A stretch of DNA of 64,000 nucleotides from an uncultured SAR116 cluster alpha proteobacterium (lineage in GTDB: Bacteria; Pseudomonadota; Alphaproteobacteria; Puniceispirillales; Marisalimonadaceae): contig CACNRW010000002.1 of NCBI GenBank assembly GCA_902622875.1, positions 62,001 to 126,000 of the forward strand, read 5' to 3'. The position numbers and the translations under genes are program-made. Shown here in pieces: positions 11,268-47,673 of this stretch. Below the pieces are notes generated by a model. It was not told where the DNA came from, ran no database searches, and worked only from the letters and a program-made list of their open reading frames with translations. Each line of letters opens with the position of its first letter. Position 1 is the first letter of the stretch.

Positions 11268-11286
11268 CATTTGTCCTTTAAATATT

Positions 11287-14497: not shown

Positions 14498-14585
14498 TTT
14501 CTTCTCTCTTATTTTCTATTTAAATTTCAGAATAAATGATAGTTTATTTAATATTAAATAAAAATAAAATTTTGTGGAGATTTTC

Positions 14586-15535: not shown

Positions 15536-16987
15536 TTAAGAATCATGAATTTTTACATATTCAAAATCACCAGGTTTATTATCAATACCTAAATCAGGTG
15601 CGGATATCCAATCAGCATATATTCCAGGTTCTGAAACTGGTTTCATTAAAGATTCAATAAATAAGTTATCATCGTTTGTTGGTAAAAACTTACATTTATC
15701 CTTATCCCAGGTATCTTTTGTTAAAACATCTCCTTTAGGTGATATATTGGCACTCATAAATGTACCAATTTTTCTATTAAAACCTTCAAAAGGTAATTTC
15801 ATCTCAAAGTTTATTTTTGCTTCTTCTATGGTTCTGTTCCACCTTTTTATACTTACTGCAGTATCTTTTGTGTAATCATCCCTTAATCTCATATTCAGTG
15901 ATAAAAGAGCAGGGGCCTTTTTATTAATAATTATTCCATCTGTAAATTCTAATATTGGATAAGTGTCATTTTTTAGAATATGGTCATCTTTTATTTTTGT
16001 TTCCCAAAATCTTCCTTTAACTCCAGCTGTATAGGTGTTTGCAGCATTTGTAGAAATTTCAGACCCAAACAAATCTAATGATAATGAGTAGTGTAGGTTT
16101 ATTTTCTTTTGAATGGTTGGTAAATCAATAACACCTAATTCTCTTATTTTGGAAATATCATAAGGATCTGAAATACCTGCTTTATTCATCATTTCGCATG
16201 TTTTTTTTATTACTCTTCTTACACCATTTTCACCAACGAACATGTGGTGAGCTTCCTCTGTAAGCATAAATCGACAAGTTCTTGAAAGTGGATCAAACCC
16301 GGATTGTGCAAGGGCTTCCAATTGCATTTTCCCGTCTCTGTCAGTGAATGCTGTAAACATGAAAAATGAAAGCCAATCTGGAGTTGATTCATTGAAAGCT
16401 CCTAACATTCTTGGGGCATCTTCAGATCCTGATTGACGTTTAAGTAATTCATTAGCTTCTTCTCTGCCGTCAGAACCAAAATATTTTTGAAGCAAGTAAA
16501 CCATTGCCCACAAATGTCTTCCTTCTTCAACATTTACCTGAAACAAATTTCTCATATCATAAAGGGATGGTGCCGTGCTGCCCAAAAATCTTTGTTGTTC
16601 GATTGAAGCTGGTTCAGTGTCACCTTGTATAACAATTAACCTTCTTAACATTGATCTATATTCACCTGGTACTTCTTGCCATACTGGTTCGCCAATGTGA
16701 TCACCGAAAGGAATTGTTCTTCCTTCTTTTTGTGGAGCTAGTAATATACCCCAACGATATTCTGGCATTTTAACATAGTCGAAAGTAGCCCAACCATCTT
16801 TGTCAACATTTATGGCAGTTCTCAAATAAACTAGCATGTCTTGAAATCCAACAGGTCCTAAATCTTTCCACCAATCTATATATCCTGGATGCCATCTTTC
16901 AAGAGCTTTAAGTACTTTTTTATCAGAAGATAAACTCACATTATTTGGTATTATTGTATCGTATTCTACTTGACTACTATTTAACAT
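15536..16987 (-). CDS. boxB: BoxB, benzoyl-CoA 2,3-epoxidase oxygenase component
   Basis: The 483-residue di-iron protein forms the 2,3-epoxide of benzoyl-CoA with O2 in the aerobic hybrid box pathway. Candidate iron ligands are visible as E125, E155, H158 (EEGRHLW), D216, E245 and H248 (LTEEAHHMF); these match, with a constant offset of five, the ligands I recall for Azoarcus BoxB (E120, E150, H153, D211, E240, H243). Length is normal for the family. GGAG precedes the ATG. It is the last gene of the long leftward operon and follows boxC by 11 nt. The reductase BoxA that should feed it electrons is not in the window. Confidence 0.96.
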   Translation of the reverse strand: MLNSSQVEYDTIIPNNVSLSSDKKVLKALERWHPGYIDWWKDLGPVGFQDMLVYLRTAINVDKDGWATFDYVKMPEYRWGILLAPQKEGRTIPFGDHIGEPVWQEVPGEYRSMLRRLIVIQGDTEPASIEQQRFLGSTAPSLYDMRNLFQVNVEEGRHLWAMVYLLQKYFGSDGREEANELLKRQSGSEDAPRMLGAFNESTPDWLSFFMFTAFTDRDGKMQLEALAQSGFDPLSRTCRFMLTEEAHHMFVGENGVRRVIKKTCEMMNKAGISDPYDISKIRELGVIDLPTIQKKINLHYSLSLDLFGSEISTNAANTYTAGVKGRFWETKIKDDHILKNDTYPILEFTDGIIINKKAPALLSLNMRLRDDYTKDTAVSIKRWNRTIEEAKINFEMKLPFEGFNRKIGTFMSANISPKGDVLTKDTWDKDKCKFLPTNDDNLFIESLMKPVSEPGIYADWISAPDLGIDNKPGDFEYVKIHDS

Positions 16988-16998
16988 TTTTTCTCCAA

Positions 16999-18660
16999 TT
17001 AAGTTCTTTCTTTAGTATATTGACCTTTGTTACCGGTACCATATTTTTTTAAAGCACCATTCTCGCCTACAGCACTTGGCCGCTGAAATATCCAGTTCTG
17101 CCAAGCAGATAGCCGACCAAAAATTTTTGTTTCCATTGTTTCTTTTCCTGGAAATCTTAAGTTAGACTCCATACCAACCATAGAATCAGGAGAAAAACTA
17201 CTTCTTTCTTCTAAAAACACTCTTATTTCGTCATCCCAATCAATGTCATCAAACTTAAAAGTTATTAAACCTAAATCATGAGCCTCTTGGGCTAAAATAT
17301 GTTTTTCAAGATTTTGTTTTGCTAACAAGATTTGTTCTGGAGATCCAATAAATCTTGTGTCTAATCTGGGCATATCATTTGACATTAAGAAATTTCCAAA
17401 ATTAGAGTTTGATAAGATAATTGATGCTTGCTTATCATCATATTCTTCAAATTCTCCTTCAGCCATGTAACTTCTGTCAGCAGCAAAAATTAATTCAGAT
17501 AAAAATCCTGCATAACAAGAATTTGGTTCAATTAAACTTATTAACGTTCTTGATGTAAGATCAATTCTTTTGAAAATTCTTGTCCAAAAAAATGATATTT
17601 CTCTGATAAACCAATGATTTTTGTAAAGTTCAAAAATTTTATCATAGGATAAAATATTTGAAATTTCGCCGTAGGTTTTGAAAATAATAATTCCTATTTC
17701 TAACTCGTTAAATCTTAAATTTAAAATTGCATCATCTAATTCTCGTGCACATCTTAAAAGCCAAAACTGATCACCTTCAGATACAATATCATTGATATCT
17801 TTTGGAGCCCTTTCTAGAGGTGCATTAATGGAAATAGTAGCAGACTTTTTTTCTCTATCTATTACAACTGATAATGTTGAATAAATTATATTTTCATTGT
17901 TGACATTATTTTTTTGTATATTCTTTAGTTTAATACCAACCAAATTATCAGCTTGTTTTTTATTGGAAGATTTTTCCTTAATCAGTAAATTAAGTTCATC
18001 ATTTAATGAAGTTTTTTTTGTGATTGTATCGACCAAACGCCAGTCTTTCGCTTTTTTAGCTTTTACACCTTCCTCCATAGTACAAAACACATCGGCAAGA
18101 TCTCTTCTTATTTTTCGCTTGTCTGTAAGTCTAGTTAAACCACCTGTGCCTGGAAGGACAGCTAGAAGTGGGACTTCAGGTAATGATATGCTAGATGATC
18201 CGTCGTCTACTAGAATAATGTGATCGCATGCAAGAGCAAGTTCGTATCCACCACCTGCACATACACCTTCAACTAAACATATAAAAAATTGGGATGATTC
18301 CTTAAAAGAATTTTCTAAAAAGTTTCTAGTTTCATTTGTAAACTTACAAAAGTTTACTTTATGAGCATGATCTGATGATGCAAGCATTTTTATATTTGCC
18401 CCGGCGCAAAAGGCTTTATCATTCCCAGATTTTATTATAACAGAATTTACATTTGGATGTTCAAACCTTATTCTTTGAACAGCGTCTGCAAGTTCTATAT
18501 CTACACCTATGTCATAACTGTTTAATTTTAATTTATAGCCCTCAAAAAAACCTGCATCTTCATTTACCTTCATTATTAGAAAAGCACAACTACCCTCAAT
18601 CAATAACTCCCAATGTTTATAGACATTAGGATTAGTCTCAAAGTTAATTTTAGGTTTCAT
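16999..18660 (-). CDS. boxC: BoxC, 2,3-epoxybenzoyl-CoA dihydrolase
   Basis: At 553 residues the protein has the size of BoxC, a crotonase-fold enzyme that opens the ring of 2,3-epoxybenzoyl-CoA with two waters to give 3,4-dehydroadipyl-CoA semialdehyde and formate. Seen in the N-terminal half: DKAFCAGANIKML and VCAGGGYELALACDHIIL, the oxyanion-hole segments of crotonases, then LPEVPLLAVLPGTGG. The C-terminal half is a second, diverged crotonase-like region ending with SAWQNWIFQRPSAVGENGAL, typical of BoxC. GAGGAAAG precedes the ATG. It lies directly upstream of boxB. The next enzyme, the semialdehyde dehydrogenase BoxD, is absent from the window. Confidence 0.95.
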   Translation of the reverse strand: MKPKINFETNPNVYKHWELLIEGSCAFLIMKVNEDAGFFEGYKLKLNSYDIGVDIELADAVQRIRFEHPNVNSVIIKSGNDKAFCAGANIKMLASSDHAHKVNFCKFTNETRNFLENSFKESSQFFICLVEGVCAGGGYELALACDHIILVDDGSSSISLPEVPLLAVLPGTGGLTRLTDKRKIRRDLADVFCTMEEGVKAKKAKDWRLVDTITKKTSLNDELNLLIKEKSSNKKQADNLVGIKLKNIQKNNVNNENIIYSTLSVVIDREKKSATISINAPLERAPKDINDIVSEGDQFWLLRCARELDDAILNLRFNELEIGIIIFKTYGEISNILSYDKIFELYKNHWFIREISFFWTRIFKRIDLTSRTLISLIEPNSCYAGFLSELIFAADRSYMAEGEFEEYDDKQASIILSNSNFGNFLMSNDMPRLDTRFIGSPEQILLAKQNLEKHILAQEAHDLGLITFKFDDIDWDDEIRVFLEERSSFSPDSMVGMESNLRFPGKETMETKIFGRLSAWQNWIFQRPSAVGENGALKKYGTGNKGQYTKERT

Positions 18661-18711
18661 TTCTTTCCTCAGTTTAGGCTTCCAATATATATCTTTAGTA
18701 AAATCGCTAGT

Positions 18712-19491
18712 CTACAAAAGATTAATAATAAAATCATGTATAAATTTCAATGTTATATCTGGATATTTATTTAAGGGGTTATGACCACAGTCTTTTATTG
18801 TTTTTTTTGTAAAAGGTACCTTGATGTTTTTTTGAATAACATTGAGCTGCTCTATTGATCCATAAGGGTCATTCAAACCTTGAATTCCTAAAACTGGGGT
18901 TTTAATTTCTGAAATATGATTAGTTATATTCCAATCTTTAAAGTTTTTATCTAACCAGACATCGCTCCAGCCATAAAACGCATTGTCAACGTCAATATGA
19001 TATTTTTCCAATTTTGAACGAAGTGATCCATGCTCATATTGATAACGTGTTTTTTCAATTGCTTTGAGGTTATCATCTTCTATAAAAAAATGAGGGGCTA
19101 AAAGAACAGTGCCTATTAAATTATTTATTGTTTTACCTCTACTACCTAATGCTGCAATTGTTCCACCATCACTATGACCAATTAAAAAGTAATTTTTAAT
19201 TTTAAGTTTTTGAATAAGAATAGGTAAATATTTCTCTGCTTCAATTGTCATATAATTAAGTGGTCTTGGCAACTCAGAATTAGATGATTTTCCATATCCA
19301 AATCTAGAGTAGACCACTACATTTAAATTTGTTTTTTCATAAATTAATTGTGGAATTTGTCTCCACATAGCTACAGAGCCAAGACCTTCATGTAACAAAA
19401 TTAAAACTGGAGAGTTATTAGAAAAGTCTCCGTAGGTTAAATATTCTAGCCGTTTGTTATTGATTTTTAAAAATGATGATTTAATTTTCAT
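18712..19491 (-). CDS. Alpha/beta hydrolase of the box cluster
   Basis: The 259-residue alpha/beta-fold hydrolase has the oxyanion segment LLHEGLGSVAMW, the nucleophile elbow GHSDGG and a C-terminal DCGHNPL carrying the catalytic His. Such hydrolases are often found in box operons, where they may cleave ester, enol-lactone or CoA-thioester side products; the exact reaction is not established. It has no signal peptide and should be cytosolic. It lies between benzoate-CoA ligase (11 nt) and boxC (51 nt) in the same operon, which supports a role in benzoyl-CoA metabolism. Confidence 0.88.
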   Translation of the reverse strand: MKIKSSFLKINNKRLEYLTYGDFSNNSPVLILLHEGLGSVAMWRQIPQLIYEKTNLNVVVYSRFGYGKSSNSELPRPLNYMTIEAEKYLPILIQKLKIKNYFLIGHSDGGTIAALGSRGKTINNLIGTVLLAPHFFIEDDNLKAIEKTRYQYEHGSLRSKLEKYHIDVDNAFYGWSDVWLDKNFKDWNITNHISEIKTPVLGIQGLNDPYGSIEQLNVIQKNIKVPFTKKTIKDCGHNPLNKYPDITLKFIHDFIINLL

Positions 19492-19502
19492 TACTTGATT
19501 AA

Positions 19503-21056
19503 CTATCTTAATTTGAACCGTTGAACTTTACCTGTAGCTGTTTTAGGAAGGTCATCAACGAAATTTATCCATCTTGGATATTTCCATTTACCAATTTTAT
19601 TTTTTACATGTTCTTTTAAAATATTTTCTTTATCACTTTTTGTTACGTTCTCATTTAAAATAACAAATGCACAAGGTTTATCTAATCCCGCAGTATCTTG
19701 TTTTACAACAACAGCAGCTTCCAGGACTATTTCGTGTGATACTAATGCTTGTTCAACTTCAAATGGTGAAATCCATATTCCACTGACTTTGAACATGTCA
19801 TCCGTTCTTCCGCTGTAGATAAATTTTCCGTCTTCTAGTTTTTCATATTTATCTCCAGTTCTTGTCCATTCTCCTTCGAATGTTTTTCTGGATTTTGTAA
19901 GTTTGTTCCAATATGCGATTGCGGAGGAATTACCTTTTACAAGCAATTCGCCTATTTCTCCTACATTAACCTCTTCGTTTTTTTCATTAACTAATCGTAA
20001 TTTATATCCTGGAACAGCACTACCAGAAGTTCCATAAACTATATCATCAGGCTTGTTAGATAAAAAAATATGTAACATTTCGGTTGATCCAACACCATCT
20101 AATATGTCTACTCCTGTAATGCTTTTCCAATCTTGACCAATTTGAGAAGGAAGTGCTTCACCAGCAGACACACATATCCTAAGGTTTTCAAAATTAGTGT
20201 TATTCTCCTTTCTTAAACTTACTAACATTGCTGCGTAAATTGTAGGCACGGCAAATAAAATTGTTGGTTTTATTTTATTCATTATATCATTAACACTATC
20301 TGGGGTAGGTCTTAATGGGAAAAGGGCGGTGGTTGCGCCAATACCCATAGGAAATGTCATGGCATTACCTAAACCGTATGCAAAAAAAAGTTTAGCTACA
20401 GAAAAAACTATGTCTTTTTCTTTTATTTTTAAAACTTTGAGAGCATATGTTTCAAATGTTTCTAACAAGCTTTTATGAACGTGAATAGTTCCTTTGGGTT
20501 CTCCGGTCGAACCAGAGGAATAAAGCCAAAAAGCTGGTTCATCTCCAGAAACTTTGATTATTTCTTTTTCAACACATAAATCTAATTCGGTAGTAAAATT
20601 TTTAACATCTTTGTTGTTATCACTTTTTCCGATTACAAATATATTATCTATTTGGTTATATAAATCTGGTATATCAAAAATTAAGTCTTTGATTTCTTGA
20701 GATACAAAGATAGTTTTAGCTCTACAGTCATCTAATATAGTTTTGATGATATCTTTAGACAATAATGTATTTATTGGTACGGGTATAACACCAGCTTTTA
20801 TACATCCCCAAAAAATTATTGGAAATTCAATTTGATCTAGAACTAACATTAAGACTCTTTCTTCTCTTCTGACATTTAATTTAGAGAGAAGGTCTATCAT
20901 TTTATTTGTTTGTATCGACAGATCTTTATAGGATATTGATCGACCAATTGACGTTGCTTCAAAAAAAACTTTTTTATTTTTAATTTTAGTATCTAAATGT
21001 CTATCTATAAAGTAATATGCGGCGTTATTCTTTTTATCTATTTTATATTCTTCCAT
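19503..21056 (-). CDS. Benzoate-CoA ligase family protein
   Basis: The 517-residue acyl-adenylating enzyme belongs to the benzoate-CoA ligase branch by its N-terminus (NNAAYYFIDRHL), the stretch RVLMLVLDQIEFPIIFWG and the AMP-binding core YSSGSTGEPKGT. The A8 hinge is GRTDDMFKVSGIWISP and the catalytic Lys is in KTATGKVQRFKLR at the C-terminus. It should convert benzoate or a close analogue (hydroxybenzoate, furoate) to the CoA ester that feeds BoxB. AGGA lies upstream of the ATG. It follows the FAD subunit of the second molybdenum hydroxylase by 14 nt. Substrate choice among aromatic acids cannot be read from sequence. Confidence 0.93.
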   Translation of the reverse strand: MEEYKIDKKNNAAYYFIDRHLDTKIKNKKVFFEATSIGRSISYKDLSIQTNKMIDLLSKLNVRREERVLMLVLDQIEFPIIFWGCIKAGVIPVPINTLLSKDIIKTILDDCRAKTIFVSQEIKDLIFDIPDLYNQIDNIFVIGKSDNNKDVKNFTTELDLCVEKEIIKVSGDEPAFWLYSSGSTGEPKGTIHVHKSLLETFETYALKVLKIKEKDIVFSVAKLFFAYGLGNAMTFPMGIGATTALFPLRPTPDSVNDIMNKIKPTILFAVPTIYAAMLVSLRKENNTNFENLRICVSAGEALPSQIGQDWKSITGVDILDGVGSTEMLHIFLSNKPDDIVYGTSGSAVPGYKLRLVNEKNEEVNVGEIGELLVKGNSSAIAYWNKLTKSRKTFEGEWTRTGDKYEKLEDGKFIYSGRTDDMFKVSGIWISPFEVEQALVSHEIVLEAAVVVKQDTAGLDKPCAFVILNENVTKSDKENILKEHVKNKIGKWKYPRWINFVDDLPKTATGKVQRFKLR

Positions 21057-21070: not shown

Positions 21071-21904
21071 TTAATTCATATCCATTCTCTTAATGGCTAA
21101 TTCTATTGTCTTAAGTCCTAAATTTCGAACAATTTCTCTTTTATATCTAGCAGAAGTATAGTGATCTGTTTTAGTGTTTAAATCCCATGCAAAATCGTTT
21201 AAACTTTTCTTAATTTCTTTTAAATTATTTGTGCGCCATTCTATAGCTGTAAAATTATCACAAACTCCTCCAACAACAAACCTAACATGATTTTCTTTTG
21301 CAATAGCAGCAAATGATGCCATGGCGAAATCACCATACTTTTCTGAAATTTCTTTGAAAGCGTATCCTGTATTTTTTGTTGCTTTTGGAAATATAACAGA
21401 TGCAACAATTTCATTATCTTTTTTTGAATTTAATAAGGGGCCTAAAAAAAAGTCTTCGGCATTTATTATTCTTTGTGAAGAATAATTCCTTAATTTTACT
21501 TTACCTTTTAAGGCTAAAAAACATAATGGAATTTCAGAGCTAGGGTCTGCATGGCATAGTGAGCCAATTATTGTTCCACGAGCACGATGTTGTTGATGAC
21601 CTATATAAGGAAGGCATTGTGCAATAAGGGGTAAATCTTTTTTTGTTTTATTTCTTATTTCAAGTTCTAGTTGTCTGTAAAGGGGACCTATTTCTATGGT
21701 GTCTTTATGATCAATTAAGTCAATATCATCTTTTATTGTATTTATATCAATCAAAACTTTTGGTTTTGCTATTCGCATATTCATCATAGCAATTAATGAT
21801 TGACCTCCTGCTAAAATCATTGCATCTTTATCATAATTTTTTAGGGCATTTAAGGTTTCTGACCAGTCTTGTGGTTGAAATAAGTCAAAAGAAGCTGGTT
21901 TCAT
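21071..21904 (-). CDS. Molybdenum hydroxylase FAD-binding subunit (CoxM/HmfB-like), module A
   Basis: The 277-residue subunit shows the FAD-binding motifs of the CoxM type: LAGGQSLIAMMNMRIAKP near residue 30 and GTIIGSLCHADPSSEIP near residue 110. It passes electrons between the 2Fe-2S subunit and an acceptor in a heterotrimeric molybdenum hydroxylase. It overlaps the Mo-subunit gene by 4 nt and should be translationally coupled to it. It lacks the Cys-rich insertion of 4-hydroxybenzoyl-CoA reductase (HcrB), so that assignment is disfavoured. With the ligase, 2Fe-2S, crotonase and Mo-subunit genes nearby it resembles hmfB of 2-furoyl-CoA dehydrogenase; this is inference from gene content. Confidence 0.92.
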   Translation of the reverse strand: MKPASFDLFQPQDWSETLNALKNYDKDAMILAGGQSLIAMMNMRIAKPKVLIDINTIKDDIDLIDHKDTIEIGPLYRQLELEIRNKTKKDLPLIAQCLPYIGHQQHRARGTIIGSLCHADPSSEIPLCFLALKGKVKLRNYSSQRIINAEDFFLGPLLNSKKDNEIVASVIFPKATKNTGYAFKEISEKYGDFAMASFAAIAKENHVRFVVGGVCDNFTAIEWRTNNLKEIKKSLNDFAWDLNTKTDHYTSARYKREIVRNLGLKTIELAIKRMDMN

Positions 21905-24882
21905 AGTCGAGACCTAAAAAGATTGATTAAAAAAGCCCAAAAACCTAATTTTTTATTTTTAGGAGACACTGCTTTCGCTAGTTGATCCAAAACTTGATTT
22001 AAAATTATTTTAGCTGCTACGTTCAAAAACCGATTACCAATTGCAGCAATTTTTCCAGAAACTTCTACTTCGTAATAATAGTCTAAAATAGTTCTGGCTT
22101 GTTCGGTTTTTTTAAGTGTTATTTTACCTTCACCTGTTGCAGTTCCTAGACTTCCTGTTGCACTTCCTTTTAATTTAAAACTAATTGGTTTTACTAGATC
22201 TGATAACTCAACTAAAAAGTCATATTTTCCTGTAATTGGACCAAAATTGATATTAATTTCTCCTGTATATAAGTTTGGTTCTTTTATTTGTATATTTTTT
22301 GATCCTGGTAAAGCTTTAATTAATGTTTCAGGGCTTAAAATGTTCTCCCAAACTAATTTATAATTCATATTTACAGACTTTGAACCTTGTCCATTGATTA
22401 AATGATTTTTGTCTACATTTACAACTAATTTTTTTGAAAAACTTGACTTAGATCTCTGTTTTTCTTTTTTATGATCTGTTAAATATGTATATATTTTAGA
22501 ATGTGTTAATGGCAGTGTAATATTTTCTATACCCAAAGCATCTGAGGCGGCATTTGCAATAGCAACTGGAGTAGACATACAATTTCCTTCACCTAAACCC
22601 TTGGCTCCTAATGGTGTAAATGGACTAGGGGTTTCAATATGAATAATAGTAGGTTTTATAATTTCACAAGTTGAGGGAAGTAAATAATCTGTAAACGAAC
22701 CACTTAAAAAAGATCCATCTTCATTATATTTAAATTCCTCATACAAAGCTGCACCAACGCCATGAGCAAAAGCTCCATATATCTGGCCGTTGGCGAGCAA
22801 AGGATTTAAAATTTTTCCAGCATCATGTCCTGTAATATATCGATCTATTTTTGTTTTTCCCGTTGTAGGATCAATTTCAAGGCCACAAACGTCAAAAACA
22901 AATCCATACGCTAGTGAACCGTTGATTTGATCGTTTTGATTTGGTGGTTTTAATTCTTGAGGAGACCATTGCACAACTTCTTGCAATCCATTTTTTGAAC
23001 TTTCATTAATTGGACTTGGAGACCAATGTTCATTACCTCCTAACCTGTTAAAAGGAATTTTATTGTCAATATTATTTTTATCTAAAACATAGTTGTTTTC
23101 AAAAACTAGGTTTTCGGTTTTGCAGTTTAATTTAGATGAAGCAATTAAAGCTAACTTAGTTTTTAGTTTTTTAGCTGCTAAAGCAGCAGTGCCTGCTACA
23201 GCTCCTGCAAAACGGCTTGAATAATTTCCTGCAGCAATTGACCAAGGGTCTTTCTGGGTGTCTAGTTCAGTATTTACATTAACGGTTTCAAAAGAAATAC
23301 CAAATATATCTGCCACAACTTGAGCAATGACAGTTTTGTGTCCTTGACCTTGGGGTAAGCTATCACATGTTACATAGACTCCTCCCATTGGCCCTATTGC
23401 AACGCCAGCACTTGCTATCGCACCTCCCTTGTGCCCTGATTTTTCTCTTTCTTCATATGGAAGGGCTGTCGTAATATAACCCATATTAGAAACAGATGGT
23501 TCAACTACAGCTGTATATCCAATCCCGTATAGTTTACCATTCTTTATAGCTTTTTCTTTTCTTAACTTCATTTCAGAAAATTGTTTAGAACTTATTACTT
23601 TGTTAATTAATTTTGAATATTGTCCTGAGTCAAGTAGGGCTCCAGAAGCAGACTGGTAAGGAAAGTCCTTATCTTTAACAAGATTTAATTTTATTACCTT
23701 TAAATGATCTAAATTTAAAACGTTTGCTATTTTATGGACTAGTCTTTCCAAGGCATAATAATGCTGAGGACCTCCAAATCCTCGATTTAATCCAGTTGGT
23801 GTTTTATTAGTAAGTACAACTCTATTTCTACAAAAAATGTTATCTATTAAATAAGGACCAGATAAGTTACCATGCATTCTATATAAAGATGCAGGTTCAG
23901 GTGCTCTTAAATATGCTCCGACGTCATCTATTTGATCATAATCAAGTGCTAGTATTTTACCGTTCTTTTTAACTGCTGCTTTGATGTTTGTCACTCTATT
24001 AGTCGCTGATGATGCAGCAGTTAAATGCTCTATTCTATCTTCAACCCACTTTACGTTTTTTCCTGAAAGTCTAGAGGCTAAACAAGTAAGAACTATCATA
24101 GGGAGTATGGCTTGCTTAATACCAAAACTACCACCAGAATCTTGATTGGAAATTAGTCTTAATTTATTTTCATTTACATTTAACGATCTAGTAATTACTG
24201 AATGCAAGCTAAACGGACCTTGAAAATTAGAACGCACAGTATATAGAGATTCTTCAGAATTATAATTACTTTGAACAACAAAACCTTCTAATGGTGTACA
24301 ACTATTTCTTGGATATTTTATCTGCAAGTCAACTATTTTATCGGCTTTTTTAAATGCTTCCTTAGGATTTCCATAAGAAAACTCTCTGTCGCTTACAACA
24401 TTATTTACAAGATTTTGATGAACTAACGGAGCATTTTTTGAGGTGGAAATTAAAGTATCAATAACTGGATTAGACTTTTCGTAAATTACCTTTATATTAT
24501 CGACGGCATCTTCTGCAATATATCTATTTTCTGCTAGAACTAAAGCTATAGGTTCTCCAACATATCGAACATATTCAATTGCACATGGCCATACTTCAAT
24601 TTTTGTTCTTAATACAGAAAGTAAAGGTTTAGATATTTTTTTAAAATCTTTACCATCAATTATTAGATTAACTCCAGGGATTGAAGTCGCTCTTGAAGTC
24701 TTTATTTCAATTATTTTTGCGGAAGCATGTTGAGACCTTAATACTGCTACATGTAATGTACCAGGAGGTTGACCAAAATCGTCTCCATAAATACCTTTGC
24801 CAGCAATTAAAGTATCATCTTCTGATCGTTCAATTCCAAAACCAATGTTACATTTAGAATTTTTGTTTAGGACATCATCCAT
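21901..24882 (-). CDS. Molybdenum hydroxylase large subunit fused to a CoxG/SRPBCC domain, module A
   Basis: The 993-residue protein joins a Mo-binding subunit (residues about 1-800) to a C-terminal CoxG-like SRPBCC domain (about 820-970: NYKLVWENILSPETLIKALPG, ATGEGKITL) and a short basic/hydrophobic tail (FWAFLINLFRSRL). The active-site loop reads GLNRGFGGPQ, not the CSFR loop of form I CO dehydrogenase, and GAKGLGEGN carries the catalytic Glu. It should hydroxylate a heteroaromatic or CoA-bound ring with water as oxygen source. CoxG domains are linked to membrane attachment or maturation of such enzymes, so the fusion could tether it to the membrane. Flanking genes suggest an HmfA-like role; the substrate is unproven. 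Confidence 0.93.
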   Translation of the reverse strand: MDDVLNKNSKCNIGFGIERSEDDTLIAGKGIYGDDFGQPPGTLHVAVLRSQHASAKIIEIKTSRATSIPGVNLIIDGKDFKKISKPLLSVLRTKIEVWPCAIEYVRYVGEPIALVLAENRYIAEDAVDNIKVIYEKSNPVIDTLISTSKNAPLVHQNLVNNVVSDREFSYGNPKEAFKKADKIVDLQIKYPRNSCTPLEGFVVQSNYNSEESLYTVRSNFQGPFSLHSVITRSLNVNENKLRLISNQDSGGSFGIKQAILPMIVLTCLASRLSGKNVKWVEDRIEHLTAASSATNRVTNIKAAVKKNGKILALDYDQIDDVGAYLRAPEPASLYRMHGNLSGPYLIDNIFCRNRVVLTNKTPTGLNRGFGGPQHYYALERLVHKIANVLNLDHLKVIKLNLVKDKDFPYQSASGALLDSGQYSKLINKVISSKQFSEMKLRKEKAIKNGKLYGIGYTAVVEPSVSNMGYITTALPYEEREKSGHKGGAIASAGVAIGPMGGVYVTCDSLPQGQGHKTVIAQVVADIFGISFETVNVNTELDTQKDPWSIAAGNYSSRFAGAVAGTAALAAKKLKTKLALIASSKLNCKTENLVFENNYVLDKNNIDNKIPFNRLGGNEHWSPSPINESSKNGLQEVVQWSPQELKPPNQNDQINGSLAYGFVFDVCGLEIDPTTGKTKIDRYITGHDAGKILNPLLANGQIYGAFAHGVGAALYEEFKYNEDGSFLSGSFTDYLLPSTCEIIKPTIIHIETPSPFTPLGAKGLGEGNCMSTPVAIANAASDALGIENITLPLTHSKIYTYLTDHKKEKQRSKSSFSKKLVVNVDKNHLINGQGSKSVNMNYKLVWENILSPETLIKALPGSKNIQIKEPNLYTGEININFGPITGKYDFLVELSDLVKPISFKLKGSATGSLGTATGEGKITLKKTEQARTILDYYYEVEVSGKIAAIGNRFLNVAAKIILNQVLDQLAKAVSPKNKKLGFWAFLINLFRSRL

Positions 24883-24898
24883 TCAAATTTATATCCTA

Positions 24899-25684
24899 TT
24901 AATTACCTTTATAAACAGGTTTTCTTTTCTCAACAAAACTGCTCACTCCTTCTTTAAAATCATTGGAGCTTCTTAACCTACCATAGGTTTCACCTTCTAA
25001 TTCTATGGCAACGTGTAAAGGAGCATCCTGTGAAGTGTTCAGGACAGTTTTAATTGCTCTTTGGGCAAGTGGTGAAACAGAACAAAGTTCTTTAACGAGT
25101 TTACTGGTAGCTTCCTTTAATTTTAAACTTTCAACAACTTCAGACGCAAGTCCCCATTTAAACGCTTCTTCACCAGATATTCTTTTACCTCGCATAATCA
25201 TATCTTTAACACGAGATAAACCAATCATTCTTGCTAATCTAACAGAGCCACCCGAGCCTGGTATCATACCTATTTTCATTTCTGGAAGCGATAATTGAGA
25301 ATTCCTTGTAACAATTCTAAAGTCACATGCCAAAGAAAACTCTAAACCAACACCAAAGCAGTAACCTTGAATAGCTGCAATCACAGGCTTTCTTAATTTT
25401 TCGGGTGTCATAACATTTTGAGCAAGCATTGTAAGTGTTTCAGGTGTTTCTTTCATAAACCCTTCAATATTTCCTCCAGAAGAAAAATTTTCACCTTCAG
25501 CACGTAATACTATAACTCTCACATCTTCGTCATTATCCAAGTTTCTCATAGCTTCTGCCATTTTTATTCTTTGAGAGTATTCAATTACATTAAGCGGAGG
25601 TCTTGATAAAATTACGTCACCTCTTTTATTTTCAGGTGAAACTTTTACTTTAAAACCTTCAAACTCAATTAATTTTTCAGACAA
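24899..25684 (-). CDS. Enoyl-CoA hydratase/isomerase (crotonase) family protein, possible HmfE-like hydrolase
   Basis: The 261-residue crotonase has GENFSSGGNIEGF and IQGYCFGVGLEFSLACDFRIV, the two oxyanion-hole segments, and PEMKIGMIPGSGGSVRLARMIG. Position-specific catalytic Glu residues appear in the third segment (LPEMKIG) as in hydratases. TTG 25684 is the start: AGGAG lies 6 nt before it. It sits between the HpaB-type gene and the CoxG-fused Mo subunit. In furoate clusters a crotonase-family hydrolase (HmfE, 2-oxoglutaryl-CoA hydrolase) occupies this role; alternatively it hydrates a cyclic or unsaturated acyl-CoA. The choice is open. Confidence 0.9.
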   Translation of the reverse strand: MSEKLIEFEGFKVKVSPENKRGDVILSRPPLNVIEYSQRIKMAEAMRNLDNDEDVRVIVLRAEGENFSSGGNIEGFMKETPETLTMLAQNVMTPEKLRKPVIAAIQGYCFGVGLEFSLACDFRIVTRNSQLSLPEMKIGMIPGSGGSVRLARMIGLSRVKDMIMRGKRISGEEAFKWGLASEVVESLKLKEATSKLVKELCSVSPLAQRAIKTVLNTSQDAPLHVAIELEGETYGRLRSSNDFKEGVSSFVEKRKPVYKGN

Positions 25685-25699
25685 TTATTACTCCTATTG

Positions 25700-27160
25700 T
25701 TATTTTTCATTTGGCAAGTCATAACTTTCCATTAAATCATCAACAACACCGTCAAAATAATCCCAGGGTGTTTCTCTATAACTGTGGTTTTTAATGATAA
25801 ATGAAGCGCCAGCATAAAATTTTTCATATTGCTGTTGTCTACCAGCAAACTCTGATCCGACCACATCCCAAGCTAGCTTAAAAAGTTTCATTCTAGATGT
25901 AGCATCCATCTGAGGAGTTTGAAAATATGTTTCAAATTCTTTTTTAAGTTTTTTATTTTTTACTACATTTATACTTGCAGGCATTTGAAAAACGCCACCA
26001 CCACAAAGGGTCCGCAATTCATCAATTATAGCAGTATAGTTTTCTGTACACCAGTTAAGAGCTGCATACATCATTCTTCTATTAAAAGTCATATGATTTT
26101 CTGGCCAACTTTCTGCTGCTTCAATTTGACCATGGATCATTCCTGATAAGTTGGCTTCTAAAGATGACATTTTACCAAGAGTTTCTCTTACTGCAGGTAT
26201 TTGATCAGCTCCAGTTGCTTTTGCAACTTTGTTGCATAGTCCAGTAATTAATTCCATTTTAGACCAATATCTTACATTTGCTTGGTGATTGCCATAACAA
26301 TGAGCAGGTGTTTTGATATATATTTCACGTGCTAGAATTGCATCATCCATTACAAATATTCTTTCCCAAGGCACTAGAACATTTTCACACATAACTAGAA
26401 CATCTGTCTCATCCATATTCCAAGATAAAGGTGAATCAAATTGGTTGTCATAATGAGTTGATAATGGCTGGCGCATCCATAAAGAAAGTCCTTTAATATT
26501 GCAAGGAATAGCACATGTTATAGCTTGTTTTACTTGATCAGGTGCTAGTGGAACGAGATTTCCAATCCAAATTTCATTTGCAAAAACTGCACTTGTTGCA
26601 AGCATTTTCATGCCAGATATTACGACACCTTCTTCGTTCTCATCTACTACAGATAAAGTTGGGATAGGTAGGTTTTGCTTTTGATAAAATTCTGGGTTTC
26701 TTGCTGCTTGTGGAGGAACAACAGCATAAGATGCAAAAATATCATTAGTTTTAATATGATTATAGTAGTTAATTAAATTTTTTTTAAATTTAAATTTTCC
26801 ACTATCAAAAATATCAGGGTTTGTTGACATTCCTGTTACAAAACTAGCTACATGATCCATTGAACGGCCCATCATGCCTGATGTTTGATCAGCTATAATT
26901 TTGTGAGCCTTTGATCTTCTTCTAAGATCACTTTTGTTTTTGGCTTGTAAAAACCATGTAGAAAATAGTTCCCCATCTTCTTCATATGATAAATCATTCT
27001 TATATTTATTTTCGTGTTTAATATCATACAATTTTGCAACTGTTTTAGCAGCCTTTTCAAATGCAGGATGACACGTCACATCATCTATTTTTTCGTCACC
27101 AATATAGACTGTTCGTCCATCTCTTAATTGTTCTAAATGTTGATCACCTGTTTTAATCAT
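25700..27160 (-). CDS. HpaB-family flavin-dependent phenol monooxygenase, large component
   Basis: The 486-residue protein has the start typical of 4-hydroxyphenylacetate 3-monooxygenase oxygenases (TGDQHLEQLRDGRTVYIGDE), then VTCHPAFEKAAKTVAKLYD, and MDETDVLVMCENVLVPWERI in the flavin-binding half. It uses FADH2 delivered by a separate reductase (HpaC) to hydroxylate a phenolic ring ortho to an OH; no hpaC is in the window. The Cys pair and His of the related 4-hydroxybutyryl-CoA dehydratase are not seen. AAAGG precedes the ATG. It follows a cupin gene by 18 nt, suggesting both act on one phenolic or furanic intermediate. Confidence 0.92.
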   Translation of the reverse strand: MIKTGDQHLEQLRDGRTVYIGDEKIDDVTCHPAFEKAAKTVAKLYDIKHENKYKNDLSYEEDGELFSTWFLQAKNKSDLRRRSKAHKIIADQTSGMMGRSMDHVASFVTGMSTNPDIFDSGKFKFKKNLINYYNHIKTNDIFASYAVVPPQAARNPEFYQKQNLPIPTLSVVDENEEGVVISGMKMLATSAVFANEIWIGNLVPLAPDQVKQAITCAIPCNIKGLSLWMRQPLSTHYDNQFDSPLSWNMDETDVLVMCENVLVPWERIFVMDDAILAREIYIKTPAHCYGNHQANVRYWSKMELITGLCNKVAKATGADQIPAVRETLGKMSSLEANLSGMIHGQIEAAESWPENHMTFNRRMMYAALNWCTENYTAIIDELRTLCGGGVFQMPASINVVKNKKLKKEFETYFQTPQMDATSRMKLFKLAWDVVGSEFAGRQQQYEKFYAGASFIIKNHSYRETPWDYFDGVVDDLMESYDLPNEK

Positions 27161-27178
27161 TTTTAAAAACCTTTACCT

Positions 27179-27568
27179 TTAAAAATTTTCATCATTTTTA
27201 TAATAATGTAATTCAAATAAAATACATCCGTTTTCTGATTTAAAAGGGCCATGATAAACACCTGGTGGCCTGCAAGCATAAGTAGATTCAGTAAACTGCT
27301 CTCCACCATTACCGTTTTTATCATTTCCTACTATCAAATCTCCAGAAACTAAGTAAACTTCTTCCCAATGATCGTGAATAAATTGGTCAGTAGTAAAAAC
27401 ACCTGGTTTGAAACGAAGCAACCTTGACCTGCTTCCAGTTTTTTTAAATTCATCAATATCAGATGCTAAAATTTGTTGTTCTATTCCAGAAGGATATCCT
27501 TTCGGTGTATGCCAGTTTTTTTCAGGTGACAATTTTGTAAATTCAATATGTGGTTTATTTTTTGACAT
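27179..27568 (-). CDS. Single-domain cupin protein
   Basis: The 129-residue protein has a conserved cupin core: FIHDHWEEVYLVSGDL in the first motif and RPPGVYHGPF in the second, giving candidate His/Glu metal ligands. The HDHWEEVYLVSG type is common in small cupins of aromatic catabolism clusters, where they act as dioxygenases, isomerases or accessory proteins. GAGGG lies just upstream of the ATG. It is between a CoA ligase and the HpaB-type monooxygenase, so a dioxygenase or isomerase step after hydroxylation is plausible, but no reaction is established. Confidence 0.85.
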   Translation of the reverse strand: MSKNKPHIEFTKLSPEKNWHTPKGYPSGIEQQILASDIDEFKKTGSRSRLLRFKPGVFTTDQFIHDHWEEVYLVSGDLIVGNDKNGNGGEQFTESTYACRPPGVYHGPFKSENGCILFELHYYKNDENF

Positions 27569-27594
27569 TTTTCCCTCGTTTCTGAAACTATTTT

Positions 27595-29130
27595 TTAATC
27601 TAGTTCATATTCTCCAGCCACTAATTTTCTTCTTAAAATTTTACCTGTTGGAGATTTTGGAATTTCTTTGACAAATATATACTCTTTAGGTCTTTTAAAG
27701 TTAAGCATATTTGATTTGATGCAATATTCATCTAACAATTGACTATTTAAATTTTTATTACGAACAACAAATGCACAAACTTTTTGACCCCATTTGGGAT
27801 CAGGTAATCCGACAACAGTTACTTCTAATATATTTTTATTCAATGATAAGATATTTTCGATTTCAATAGGAGAAATATTTTCTCCACCTGTAATAATCAT
27901 ATCATCTACTCTACCGGTAACAAATAAGTCTCCATCTTCATCAAAATAACCTAGATCTCCTGTAAAATACCAACCATCAATAATTGATTTTTTGTTTGCA
28001 TCAGGTCTTTTTAAATATCCTGAAAAAGCTTCATCAGAATTTAAATTAGCAATTATTTCACCTTCAACTTTTTTCCCTAATAATTTTTTAGTGTTATATG
28101 CCCCCATTTCAACAACACGTATCTGTTGATTTATACCAGCTTTACCTGCGGACCCTGGTTTTAAATTTGCATTTTGATCAACTGTGAAAGTATAAATTTC
28201 TGAAGAACCATAATGATTAACTAAATTTTTTGGTTCAAACCCTTCCATTACTTTTTTTATTAATCCATCATTCATTGGTGAGCCTGCAAAACCTAATTTT
28301 TTACAAGTTTTTACCTTTTCTTTTGAAAAATATTCATTTTCTAATAAATCATAATAAAGAGTTGGAACAAGGTATAAACTTGTTATTTTAAAATACTCAA
28401 TTAATTCTATAGCTTGCTGAGAGGAAAATTTTGGTTGAGCAATAAATGTTCCATTAAGCAAAACCATCGAAATCAAAGATCTAACACCCATAGTGTGATA
28501 AAGAGGCATTACACCTAATGTTGATTCATTTTTTTGGTACATATTTTGAGCAATATGAGCTATTGCAGAAGATCTTTCAGCAAAATGTGTTCTAGGGACA
28601 CCTTTAGGTTTTCCCGTGGTTCCAGATGTATATAAAATCAATGATAAAAAATCACTTTTGGCCGTAGGGCCATTTCCAGATTTTCCATTTTTTAATAAGT
28701 CATTAAAATTTATTTTATCCTTTTTTGGTTTTCCAACAAAAATATTAATTAAATTTTGGCATGTAATTGAGTTTTTAACTGAAAGGTAACTTTCTTCTTG
28801 GTAAATTATACATCTAGCATCAGAGTCTGATATACAAAAATCGATTTCTTCAGACTTCATTCGCCAATTTAATGGAACTATTGTAAGACCGGTAATTTGG
28901 CATGCCCAATGTATTGTTGCAGCCGCTATATTATTTTGAAGTAATGTAATTACTTTATCTTTTGATCTTAGACCAACAGATTTTAATCCTCCACAAAGTT
29001 TATCAACTTCTTCAAACCATTCTTCATAATTAATTTCATTATCTATTTCTGCAATAGCAATTGTTTTTGGAGATTTTTCTATAGATGTAAAAAAGGATGT
29101 CCCAAGGTCAAGCATTTTTTTTATGTTCAT
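27595..29130 (-). CDS. Acyl-CoA ligase (AMP-forming), aromatic/furoate type, module A
   Basis: The 511-residue class I adenylate-forming enzyme contains YTSGTTGKPKGVPRTH (P-loop), NHYGSSEIY (A5), GWYFTGDLGYFDEDGDLF (A7), GRVDDMIITGGENISP (A8 hinge) and the catalytic Lys in PTGKILRRKL near the end. It should activate a carboxylic acid as an AMP ester and form the CoA thioester. It overlaps the 2Fe-2S subunit gene by 23 nt, so it is translationally linked to the molybdenum hydroxylase. In hmf loci a 2-furoate CoA ligase (HmfD) stands in exactly this relation to the hydroxylase, hence the suggested substrate class. Confidence 0.92.
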   Translation of the reverse strand: MNIKKMLDLGTSFFTSIEKSPKTIAIAEIDNEINYEEWFEEVDKLCGGLKSVGLRSKDKVITLLQNNIAAATIHWACQITGLTIVPLNWRMKSEEIDFCISDSDARCIIYQEESYLSVKNSITCQNLINIFVGKPKKDKINFNDLLKNGKSGNGPTAKSDFLSLILYTSGTTGKPKGVPRTHFAERSSAIAHIAQNMYQKNESTLGVMPLYHTMGVRSLISMVLLNGTFIAQPKFSSQQAIELIEYFKITSLYLVPTLYYDLLENEYFSKEKVKTCKKLGFAGSPMNDGLIKKVMEGFEPKNLVNHYGSSEIYTFTVDQNANLKPGSAGKAGINQQIRVVEMGAYNTKKLLGKKVEGEIIANLNSDEAFSGYLKRPDANKKSIIDGWYFTGDLGYFDEDGDLFVTGRVDDMIITGGENISPIEIENILSLNKNILEVTVVGLPDPKWGQKVCAFVVRNKNLNSQLLDEYCIKSNMLNFKRPKEYIFVKEIPKSPTGKILRRKLVAGEYELD

Positions 29131-29617
29131 TTCTTTTTTTTATTACTTCTAATACTGCATCTACAATCCCAACATATCCAGTACATCGACAAACATTTCC
29201 ACTAAGTATTTTTCTAATTTCTTTCTCATCGGCATATTCTGGGTTTTCGTTAAGATAAGAACTTATTGTAATTAAAAATCCTGAAGTACAAAAACCACAT
29301 TGTAATGCATGATGTTTCTTAAATGCGGCTCTTAAGTCATCTAAATTTTTGTCTTTAACTATACCTTCAACTGTTGTTAATTCATGTCCATTAACCTGAG
29401 ATGCCAGCATTAAACACGATCTAATGGGTTTTCCATTAAATATAATTGTACATGCTCCACATATCCCATGCTCACACCCAACATGGGTACCTGTTTCTCC
29501 AATTGAATACCTTAAAAAGTCACTTAAAAGAGTCCTTGGATAAATATTTTTACTTAATTTAATTCCATTTAACGTAAAAGTTACGCTAATTTTTTCGCTT
29601 GATTTTATTAATGGCAT
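29108..29617 (-). CDS. Molybdenum hydroxylase 2Fe-2S subunit, module A
   Basis: The 169-residue subunit has the plant-type 2Fe-2S motif GCEHGICGACTI (with the fourth Cys in CLML) and the second, alpha-helical cluster CGFCTSGF ... CRCTGYVG. CTSGF replaces the usual CTPGF, a mild deviation. It carries electrons from the Mo centre to FAD. In this operon it is 4 kb away from the Mo and FAD subunits, with a ligase, a cupin, a monooxygenase and a crotonase between; it is assigned to them because the other hydroxylase set has its own small subunit. AGAGAAG precedes the ATG. Confidence 0.93.
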   Translation of the reverse strand: MPLIKSSEKISVTFTLNGIKLSKNIYPRTLLSDFLRYSIGETGTHVGCEHGICGACTIIFNGKPIRSCLMLASQVNGHELTTVEGIVKDKNLDDLRAAFKKHHALQCGFCTSGFLITISSYLNENPEYADEKEIRKILSGNVCRCTGYVGIVDAVLEVIKKRNEHKKNA

Positions 29618-31192: not shown

Positions 31193-31212
31193 TTTTGGTC
31201 CTAATATCCTAA

Positions 31213-35088: not shown

Positions 35089-35091
35089 TTA

Positions 35092-36477: not shown

Positions 36478-37116
36478 TTAATTAATTTCTCCACGTTCTA
36501 TTACAAAAGATTTATCGAGCATTCCCTCATAGTGTCCTGCATTACTTTCTGCAATGAGGGTTGTTACACCTTCTTTTTTTAAATCATTTAATATATCGAT
36601 TATTCTTTTGGCTAATGCTGGTGCAATTCCTTCAGACGGTTCATCTAATAATAACAATTTGCTTCCAACCATTAGAGCTCTAGATAACGCTATAAGTTTT
36701 TGTTGACCACCTGATAGACTTGTTGAAGGCCTGTCTTTTAGTTCTAAAGCTTCAGGAATAATTTTATAAATCCATTCTAATCTGTTTTTCCAATCTAATA
36801 TGTTAGTTGCCCAAACAGGTGTTAAAATATTTTCTTCTGCAGACATAGATGGTATCAACTTTCTATCTTCAGGCATATATCCAATTGAGAGGTAGGCTCT
36901 TTTTTGAGAAGGAAGTTTTATTAATTCATTTTCTTCAAATATTAATTCACCAGATTTAATTGGAAGTATACCCATTATTGCTCGTAACAACGTAGTCTTT
37001 CCAGCTCCATTTCTCCCAATCAAACCAACCATTTGGCCTTTCTGCAGGTCTAAAGAAACATCTTTAAGGATTTCAATTAGTCCAATATTTACATTTATTT
37101 TATTAATTTTTAACAT
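36478..37116 (-). CDS. LivF-like ABC transporter ATP-binding protein, short C-terminus
   Basis: The 212-residue ATPase has Walker A GRNGAGKTT, signature LSGGQQKL and Walker B LLLLDEPSEGIAP, the EGIAP sequence being characteristic of LivF. The chain stops at VIERGEIN, about 20 residues before the usual LivF end; the missing part is a poorly conserved tail, so activity may be kept. It pairs with the LivG-like ATPase (28 nt upstream) to drive the two permeases. It is the last transporter gene before the catabolic genes. Confidence 0.92.
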   Translation of the reverse strand: MLKINKINVNIGLIEILKDVSLDLQKGQMVGLIGRNGAGKTTLLRAIMGILPIKSGELIFEENELIKLPSQKRAYLSIGYMPEDRKLIPSMSAEENILTPVWATNILDWKNRLEWIYKIIPEALELKDRPSTSLSGGQQKLIALSRALMVGSKLLLLDEPSEGIAPALAKRIIDILNDLKKEGVTTLIAESNAGHYEGMLDKSFVIERGEIN

Positions 37117-37144
37117 AATTAAAAAATCCCAGTATCGTATCCTT

Positions 37145-37894
37145 TTAATGTCCTAAAACGTATTCAATAACCTTTTTATCCGATAATGCTTCCTTCGGAG
37201 GTGCATCACATATAATTTCTCCTTGATAGAAAGCAATAACGCGATCTACATATCTTTCAACAATTTCCATATCATGTTCAACAAATAATACAGAAGTTTC
37301 AGTTTGTTTTAAGGCAGCAATTACGATATCCATGATCCCAAACTTTTCTTCAACTGAGACACCTGAGGTTGGTTCGTCTAGTAATATGACTTTAGGATTT
37401 CCAACCACAGCCATGGCAATATCTAATAATTTTCTTATTCCTTGAGATAGTGTACTAACTATATTGTTACTTTGATCCAAAATTTTATATAATTCTAAAA
37501 TTTTATCACATTCTTTAGAAATTTCATCATCAGCTATTGGATCTAACAGTGCTTTTCCATTTTTCTTTGATAGAGACATTGCTATCATTAGATTTTGCTT
37601 AACTGACATTGTCATAAAAACTTGACTTATTTGAAACGACCTACATAAGCCAATATGAGTTGCGTTTCTAGGCTCTATTCCTGTTATATCTTCTCCTAAA
37701 AACTCTATTTTACCACTAGTAGGTTTCAAATAACCTGTGATCATATTTACAAAAACAGTCTTACCAGCACCATTTGCACCAATTATACCTACAATCTCAC
37801 CTTGATTAATTGAAACATTAATATCTTTAGCAGCAATAATTCCAGAAAAAGATTTGTTTAAGTCAGAAGCTTTTAATACCGTATCATTTGACAT
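37145..37894 (-). CDS. LivG-like ABC transporter ATP-binding protein
   Basis: The 249-residue ATPase shows Walker A GANGAGKT, GLCRSFQISQVF as Q-loop, the signature LSQGIRKLLDIAMAV, Walker B VILLDEPTSGVS and the H-loop FVEHDME, all LivG features. ATG 37894 is preceded by GGAAAG at 7 nt; longer in-frame starts would run deep into livM. It overlaps the livM-like gene by 11 nt. It supplies energy for import of the compound captured by the binding protein of this operon. Confidence 0.93.
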   Translation of the reverse strand: MSNDTVLKASDLNKSFSGIIAAKDINVSINQGEIVGIIGANGAGKTVFVNMITGYLKPTSGKIEFLGEDITGIEPRNATHIGLCRSFQISQVFMTMSVKQNLMIAMSLSKKNGKALLDPIADDEISKECDKILELYKILDQSNNIVSTLSQGIRKLLDIAMAVVGNPKVILLDEPTSGVSVEEKFGIMDIVIAALKQTETSVLFVEHDMEIVERYVDRVIAFYQGEIICDAPPKEALSDKKVIEYVLGH

Positions 37895-38846
37895 TTTTTT
37901 TCTTTCCATAATTGAAAACTTTTTCGATGACGGACCATATACCTCCTGGAAAAAAGAAAATGATTGCAAGCAATGTGCCTCCCACAATAGCAGCCCAAGC
38001 CTGTGGTGCCCATTCAAAAGCATAAGTTCTTATAAATTCAAATATAATAGCACCTATAAATGGGGCTAAAATATTTCCCCATCCAGACATAATTGTAATA
38101 AACACTAACTCACCAGAAACATTCCAGTTAACCATAGAATCAGGATCAACTTGACCTAAACTTGCTGCCATTAGTCCACCAGCGCCACCTGCCAAACAGG
38201 CTGACATTACATATTTAATATGAATCGCTTTTTGAACAGAATAACCTAAGTATTCAACTCTTATTTCGTTGTCTTGAATGGCAGTAGTTAGATGTCCTAG
38301 AGTTGACCTTAGATACGCTTGTATAGAGATCGCAGCACAGATAACAAAAAATGTAATTAAATAAAAGAGGTATTGCCTAGTTAATTCCATCCCTAAAAGT
38401 GTAGATGGAGAAATTGACATGCCGTCTGTAGATCCAAGAAACTCAGCTTTTGCTAACAAACCATACAAAACCATTGAAAAAGCAAGAGACAACATTGCAA
38501 AGAATATTTCTCTATATTTTCTTAGAATAAATCCAAGACAAAAACCTAATATGCCTGCAGCAATCACTGCAATTGCAAACCGAAGTAAAATGTCAGTGAT
38601 ACCAAAATATTTTTGACATAACGCTACTGCATATGCTCCAAAGCCATAATAGAGCGCATGTCCAAAAGAAACTAAATTTGTTCTCCATAATAGCATAAGA
38701 CCTAAAATTGCCAATCCTCTGGATAAACCATACATAAAGTTGTTTTGCATCCAGTCAGGAAGAACCAAAGAAGATAAAACACACAAAACTATCATAAATG
38801 TGATTAAAATTCTTACACTTGTATCTTTAAAAATACCTGTAAACAT
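37884..38846 (-). CDS. LivM-like ABC transporter permease
   Basis: The 320-residue membrane protein has about ten hydrophobic segments and the LivM landmarks GLSRGLAILGLMLLWRTNLV, SFGHALYYGFGAY, and the EAA-like coupling sequence around IQDNEIRVEYLGYSVQKAI. AGGA precedes the ATG. It shares its start with the stop of the livH-like gene (one base overlap). With the LivH-like protein it forms the membrane channel; in catabolic operons such transporters often carry aromatic acids, not amino acids. Confidence 0.92.
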   Translation of the reverse strand: MFTGIFKDTSVRILITFMIVLCVLSSLVLPDWMQNNFMYGLSRGLAILGLMLLWRTNLVSFGHALYYGFGAYAVALCQKYFGITDILLRFAIAVIAAGILGFCLGFILRKYREIFFAMLSLAFSMVLYGLLAKAEFLGSTDGMSISPSTLLGMELTRQYLFYLITFFVICAAISIQAYLRSTLGHLTTAIQDNEIRVEYLGYSVQKAIHIKYVMSACLAGGAGGLMAASLGQVDPDSMVNWNVSGELVFITIMSGWGNILAPFIGAIIFEFIRTYAFEWAPQAWAAIVGGTLLAIIFFFPGGIWSVIEKVFNYGKKKNVK

Positions 38847-39742: not shown

Positions 39743-39764
39743 TTTAAAACTCCAAAATGGCAAT

Positions 39765-39796
39765 AAAAAAGGATGCTTTAATTAGCATCCTTTTTT
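39765..39796 (-). terminator. Strong intra-operon terminator/attenuator after the ABC binding-protein gene
   Basis: A perfect 12-bp stem (AAAAAAGGATGC / GCATCCTTTTTT) with the 8-nt loop TTTAATTA starts 7 nt after the binding-protein stop codon and ends in six T. It has the form of a Rho-independent terminator in both directions. As the permease genes continue in the same direction, partial read-through would set a high ratio of binding protein to permease. Confidence 0.88.
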
Positions 39797-39803
39797 ATAA
39801 AAT

Positions 39804-47672: not shown

Positions 47673-47673
47673 A

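Follow-up and report, generated by a model that had tools for sequence, protein, structure and literature searches.

A divergent hmf-type gene set with built-in HpaB and cupin genes in SAR116 bacteria, a candidate pathway for heteroaromatic acids

The window analysed here is a stretch of 64,000 nucleotides from an uncultured SAR116 cluster alphaproteobacterium (contig CACNRW010000002.1, positions 62,001 to 126,000), the minus strand of which carries a block of seven genes at 21071-29617 (Table 1). In the direction of transcription, these encode a 2Fe-2S subunit, a CoA ligase, a cupin, an HpaB-family protein, a crotonase-family protein, a Mo subunit and an FAD subunit. An initial annotation had recognised five of them as resembling hmfABCDE, the genes of the 2-furoyl-CoA pathway. 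All five do lie in this interval and on this strand, and the gene families of the block are confirmed by Pfam and NCBIfam, the cupin match being slightly below the cut-off. The reported overlap between the ligase and 2Fe-2S genes is likewise found and amounts to 23 nt. A feature absent from that annotation is the CoxG domain (PF06240) at the C-terminus of the Mo subunit, which spans residues 833-972 according to Pfam; the catalytic loop GLGEGNCMSTP is kept in the same protein.

Table 1. Features of the block and its surroundings, with positions in the window.
Feature	Position	Strand	Remarks
2Fe-2S subunit (HmfC-like)	29108..29617	-	Fer2_2; 49-54% identity to hmf-operon 2Fe-2S subunits
AMP-binding CoA ligase (HmfD-like)	27595..29130	-	best plasmid matches all within hmf operons, 50-54%
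Small single-domain cupin	27179..27568	-	conserved His65, Glu70, His106; fixed in block
HpaB-family flavin oxygenase component, R-H-Y type	25700..27160	-	PF11794/PF03241
Crotonase-family protein (HmfE-like)	24899..25684	-	plasmid best matches all adjoin hmf Mo subunits, 53-57%
Mo-cofactor subunit with CoxG domain (HmfA-like)	21901..24882	-	Pfam/NCBIfam, plasmid matches
FAD subunit (HmfB-like)	21071..21904	-	PF00941; 39-44% identity to hmf FAD subunits
Benzoate-CoA ligase family protein	19503-21056	-	directly downstream of block
Benzoate-CoA ligase family, alpha/beta hydrolase, BoxC, BoxB	15536..21056	-	downstream neighbours, outside block
DHDPS-family aldolase	14574-15518	opposite to block	beside block in most relatives
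Liv-type ABC transporter (substrate-binding protein and four membrane/ATPase parts)	36478..41120	-	synteny
Second xanthine-oxidase-family set	29666-36430		between transporter and block
Third Mo-enzyme set	42659-48525		
Two genes resembling hydantoinase/oxoprolinase A and B	48666-52477		by eye; beside third Mo-enzyme set
Zinc-binding-type transporter protein	10116-11306		His/Asp-rich repeat

The genes from that of the ABC-transporter substrate-binding protein (41120) through to boxB (15536) all run in one direction, and neighbours are no more than about 50 nt apart, which suggests a single transcription unit, and all five hmf components are present in one apparent unit of this kind. The Liv transporter also lies upstream of the block in those relatives with contigs long enough, and its adjacency makes it the probable uptake system of the block. 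The second xanthine-oxidase-family set comprises Mo, 2Fe-2S and FAD subunits, its own CoA ligase, an SDR and a metallo-beta-lactamase-fold lactonase-like protein. It was rejected as a part of the block since it occurs in some relatives whereas three members of the same genus lack it at this locus, and this patchy presence makes it look like an optional cassette. The third Mo-enzyme set consists of a fused 2Fe-2S/Mo protein of 912 aa, an FAD subunit and two proteins of 472 and 284 aa, the former of which, without any Pfam or NCBIfam match, is assumed here to be 6-hydroxynicotinate-reductase-like, and the latter of which belongs to an uncharacterised family. A zinc-binding-type transporter protein encoded elsewhere in the window carries a long tandem repeat rich in His and Asp, DHDDHDKHGKKH.

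Downstream, the initial annotation had placed the block next to box genes, and these follow it directly, with both BoxC (810.7 bits) and BoxB (841.3 bits) passing their cut-offs of 712.3 and 499.1, respectively. As a general feature this arrangement does not hold, since the box genes adjoin the block only in the genus of the window. Their candidacy as members of the pathway was rejected, given that boxB lies on a different contig in two other genera and that boxB is present without the block in some genomes; the neighbours encode the usual epoxidation of benzoyl-CoA and have no bearing on the furan question. The DHDPS-family aldolase was considered as an enzyme acting on a hydroxylated product of the pathway and was also discarded, as 23 of the 35 genomes with the aldolase lack the block.

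Homologues of the Mo subunit, the ligase and the crotonase were sought in a collection of 72,556 plasmids. All three have their best matches in one common group of operons, the organisation of which agrees with that published for hmf/psf loci (PMC6678421, PMC12064950). The 36 best matches of the Mo subunit align over 96-99% of its length, including CoxG, with identities of 45-50%, and the ligase reaches E<1e-100 in only 41 of 2928 records. The order Mo-FAD-2Fe-2S-ligase-crotonase was found in four examined neighbourhoods (Cupriavidus pinatubonensis, Dinoroseobacter shibae, Rhizobium TCK and Paracoccus yeei), and Caballeronia NK8 has the same hmf genes with the crotonase upstream. BenE, XdhC or AraC stand beside some of these plasmid operons, UbiD and UbiX lie near that of D. 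shibae, and a UbiD homologue adjoins the operon in about half of the 69 named loci outside SAR116 that were found with the Mo subunit. Conversely, neither UbiD nor XdhC nor AraC was found beside the SAR116 blocks in flanks of up to 10 kb a side.

With operons of the published layout standing in for the characterised Cupriavidus basilensis proteins (ADE20399-ADE20403) as the canonical reference, the mean identity of the SAR116 proteins to canonical members is 49% for the Mo subunit and 52% for both the ligase and the crotonase, compared with 63%, 64% and 76% among the canonical members themselves. Of the residues that are invariant in canonical HmfA, HmfD and HmfE homologues, the Mo subunit keeps about 89%, the ligase 91% and the crotonase 80%; the corresponding values for the second Mo subunit and the second ligase of the window are 43% and 48%. 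In a ligase tree obtained by a quick method, the SAR116 clade stands beside 29 proteobacterial HmfD sequences with a support of 94. In the Mo tree, SAR116 is a clade with full support and a long stem, and the point at which this clade attaches to the canonical groups is not resolved. The SAR116 ligase and Mo proteins do not nest inside the canonical Hmf clades in these trees, which argues against a typical hmf system and not against one that may work like hmf. The likeness to hmfABCDE therefore appears well supported at the family level, where the best matches lie in hmf operons, and has to be given up as a claim of typical hmf, in view of the separate clade, the other gene order and the accessory genes. 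The initial annotation had itself counted a branching away from the Hmf orthologues against its proposal, and in part this is what the trees contain.

Related sets occur in other settings. On an Agrobacterium plasmid (L192:6956-13548), a Mo trio of the hmf family with the CoxG fusion is accompanied by two alpha/beta hydrolases and another cupin, and genes of the HmfD or HmfE type were not found beside it. This trio is at least as near to canonical hmf as that of the window and probably serves a different substrate with the same type of enzyme. Since it stands in another context, the Mo trio alone does not fix the substrate, and it is the ligase and the crotonase that carry the argument. In Geobacillus kaustophilus pHTA426 (L189:8986-11876), an hmf-type operon with UbiD upstream has CoxG as a separate gene after the Mo subunit, an arrangement suggesting that two adjacent genes were once joined to give the fused form.

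With regard to HpaB and the cupin, the initial annotation had described them as extras that are not part of hmf. They are indeed foreign to canonical hmf, as neither HpaB nor a cupin of the block type was found at any of the 69 hmf loci outside SAR116, in flanks of up to 10 kb a side, whereas HpaB is present in 11 of 11 SAR116 loci searched in the same way. They are not, however, loose additions. The block is identical in all 12 complete loci, window included, which represent three genera of one family, and in each of them both genes sit between the ligase and the crotonase; further loci in relatives are cut by contig ends, and none of these lacks HpaB or the cupin. Being intact in relatives, the seven-gene arrangement is not a product of chance. 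Among 121 related genomes, the Mo subunit and the HpaB orthologue occur in exactly the same 16, where the HpaB proteins are 78-100% identical, and 15 of these 16, plus one other genome, have the cupin orthologue; as the genomes are related and incomplete and the genes linked, the 16 co-occurrences are not independent events. HpaB and the cupin have not been lost where the core was kept, and they are a fixed part of the set in this lineage. The genome of the window is assigned to the AAA536-G10 lineage of SAR116. Its named relatives include the SAR116 single-cell genomes SCGC AAA536-G10, AAA536-K22 and AG-390-L20, and the family AAA536-G10 has been placed in one of two SAR116 subclades (PMC8547437).

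Outside this lineage, the HpaB-cupin pair is found free-standing on plasmids, accompanied by a flavin reductase, an amidase, DUF2848 and a Liv transporter, and it also occurs with DUF2848 in other alphaproteobacteria, the HpaB of which is 67-69% identical. The pair thus exists independently of hmf, and the simplest reading is that it was joined to hmf in the SAR116 lineage. On a plasmid of Caballeronia NK8 (L026:9263-22429), an hmf operon lies about 5 kb from a separate flavin reductase-HpaB-cupin-amidase module. A cupin paralogue with 46-50% identity occurs in other SAR116 genomes (L199, L200, L201, L202 and L203), in a conserved cluster that differs from the block, contains ABC transporter and hydrolase-like genes and is without HpaB. 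A search of the genome for DUF2848 gave no match, a weak result in that the control likewise matched nowhere, and a text search of the literature for DUF2848 found no paper.

At the residue level, the HpaB of the block has R99, H103 and Y145 at the positions of R100, Y104 and H142 in the Thermus enzyme, with Tyr and His exchanged; the Thermus residues are presumed here to hold the phenol hydroxyl. The R-H-Y form is common to every cupin-linked HpaB examined and to several other HpaBs, and therefore marks a subfamily and not the operon of the block. The protein was rejected as a true 4-hydroxyphenylacetate hydroxylase (311.6 bits, cut-off 480.2), for which the R-Y-H triad is also lacking. It was likewise rejected as a 4-hydroxybutyryl-CoA dehydratase, as it has Arg99 and His103 in place of Cys ligands of the 4Fe-4S cluster, assuming that the Cys/His ligands of the dehydratase align to these two positions. 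The cupin has four invariant residues (His65, Glu70, His106 and His121) and gave a structure model with a pLDDT of 88, and a profile search of the PDB with this protein gave nothing significant. Flavin reductase genes are encoded elsewhere in the genome.

Taken together, these data favour, with a probability of roughly 0.6, an hmf-derived pathway for heteroaromatic acids in SAR116 of which HpaB and the cupin are integral parts. The most likely substrate would be furan-2-carboxylic acid or a similar five-membered heteroaromatic acid, and the odds are somewhat in favour of furan as the ring. Judging by synteny, the Liv transporter would take up such an acid, with furan-2-carboxylate, plain or substituted, as the likeliest choice, and by homology the ligase would convert it to the acyl-CoA, the Mo/FAD/2Fe-2S enzyme would hydroxylate a ring carbon with water, with ring opening to follow, and the crotonase would lead to the release of 2-oxoglutarate. 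HpaB and the cupin would provide an obligate additional, oxygen-dependent ring step of the same pathway, in which HpaB would depend on a reductase with its gene elsewhere for reduced flavin. Its probable reaction is the hydroxylation of the heterocycle in an electron-rich or already hydroxylated state, and the cupin would then process the product. Their membership of the pathway rests on genome evidence, whereas the chemistry given for them is an inference. As both are built into a divergent set, the SAR116 version probably handles the ring compound differently from the soil version. The shared best-match operons, the kept invariant residues, the CoxG fusion, the presence of HpaB and the cupin in every complete locus, the strict co-occurrence of HpaB with the Mo subunit, the contrast with hmf loci outside SAR116 and the flavin reductase genes elsewhere in the genome speak for this pathway; the separate long-branch clade, the Agrobacterium trio, the lack of UbiD, XdhC and AraC and the linkage of the genes in related, incomplete genomes speak against it. 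That an uncharacterised oxygen-dependent step, made up of the R-H-Y HpaB and the cupin, has been joined by ocean bacteria to the furoyl-CoA hydroxylase pathway, giving a new route for the breakdown of a five-membered heteroaromatic acid in surface seawater, is a tentative proposal that is rather doubtful at present.

Unlikely, although the best placed of the alternatives, is that one operon serves two parallel routes, with the hmf core degrading furan-2-carboxylate through CoA, HpaB and the cupin independently opening a related electron-rich ring, for instance pyrrole-2-carboxylate, and both ending at 2-oxoglutarate. Of the readings considered, this one comes nearest to the wider substrate range suggested in the initial annotation. 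Pyrrole-2-carboxylate is considered because a two-component flavin monooxygenase for it is known, as indicated by a reference in PMC6165268. Such a division of labour would agree with the existence of the pair by itself, with a flavin reductase and amidase or with DUF2848, and with the proximity of both sets in Caballeronia NK8. However, a merely added activity should sometimes be lost, yet this one is present in every complete locus; moreover, its genes are inserted within the hmf set, and the block contains neither the amidase nor the DUF2848 that accompany the free-standing pair. Somewhat less probable again is a core that acts on another acyl-CoA, derived from a heteroaromatic or aromatic acid that HpaB and the cupin prepare, so that the likeness to hmf would reflect ancestry only. 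The separate clade, the altered gene order, the lack of UbiD, XdhC and AraC and the related Mo-CoxG trio in a different context fit this idea, but the ligase and crotonase are orthologous to those of hmf and most of the family-invariant residues are retained. Finally, an aerobic CO dehydrogenase, 4-hydroxybenzoyl-CoA reductase or aldehyde oxidoreductase with incidental neighbours, as the CoxG domain and generic family matches might suggest, is highly improbable, given partner genes of the hmf type and scores far under the curated cut-offs for CoxL (435 against 950 and 379 against 991 bits), for the reductase (alpha 304 against 995, beta 39 against 405) and for glyceraldehyde dehydrogenase alpha (425 against 790). 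CO, which the initial annotation had listed as a possible substrate of closer relatives, is thus not borne out, and judged by sequence neither CO dehydrogenase nor 4-hydroxybenzoyl-CoA reductase nor xanthine dehydrogenase appears to fit better than hmf.

Among the components of marine dissolved organic matter, furan acids and their heteroaromatic relatives have been traced only poorly. If the hmf-derived pathway with integral HpaB and cupin is correct, some members of SAR116, which is abundant in the surface ocean, can use furan or related heteroaromatic acids. Furthermore, with HpaB and the cupin strictly tied to a furoyl-CoA-type enzyme, these few proteins are a concrete place to look for the role of the HpaB-cupin pair, which is widespread. 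A search of the open-licence literature turned up no account of hmf genes in SAR116, and a phylogenomic study of SAR116 does not mention furan or aromatic degradation (PMC8547437).

In comparison with known systems, the top fold match of the cupin model is the acetylacetone dioxygenase Dke1 (3bal; E 1.1e-7, TM 0.58-0.66), but with 20% identity and an rmsd of 8.0; as many other cupins match nearly as well, no function is implied. The HpaB shares its family and flavin-oxygenase fold with the 4-hydroxyphenylacetate 3-hydroxylase HpaB of Thermus (2yyg, E 2.7e-65), from which it differs in the swapped triad residues and in a score below the curated cut-off. In the free-standing modules (Caballeronia NK8, Thioclava, Roseateles XES5 and Paracoccus versutus), the two genes are adjacent, the cupin is 53-66% identical and HpaB has the same R-H-Y triad, but HpaB is just 34-37% identical; a flavin reductase, an amidase and DUF2848 are present where annotated, and the modules contain no hmf genes. 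Finally, the SAR116 block has all five components in common with hmfABCDE of C. basilensis HMF14 and the homologous operons of Pseudomonas, Burkholderiaceae, Bradyrhizobium, Dinoroseobacter and other bacteria, as well as the CoxG-fused Mo subunit and the overlap or contact of the 2Fe-2S and ligase genes, and the proteins are mutual best matches at 39-56% identity. It differs from them in its gene order, C-D-cupin-HpaB-E-A-B instead of A-B-C-D-E, in forming a separate clade, in its two extra internal genes and in standing without UbiD, XdhC and AraC, although XdhC, AraC and BenE neighbours are also missing from some hmf loci. The closest known relative is thus hmf itself, of which the SAR116 locus appears, from its sequence, to be a divergent and rearranged form with two additional genes built in.
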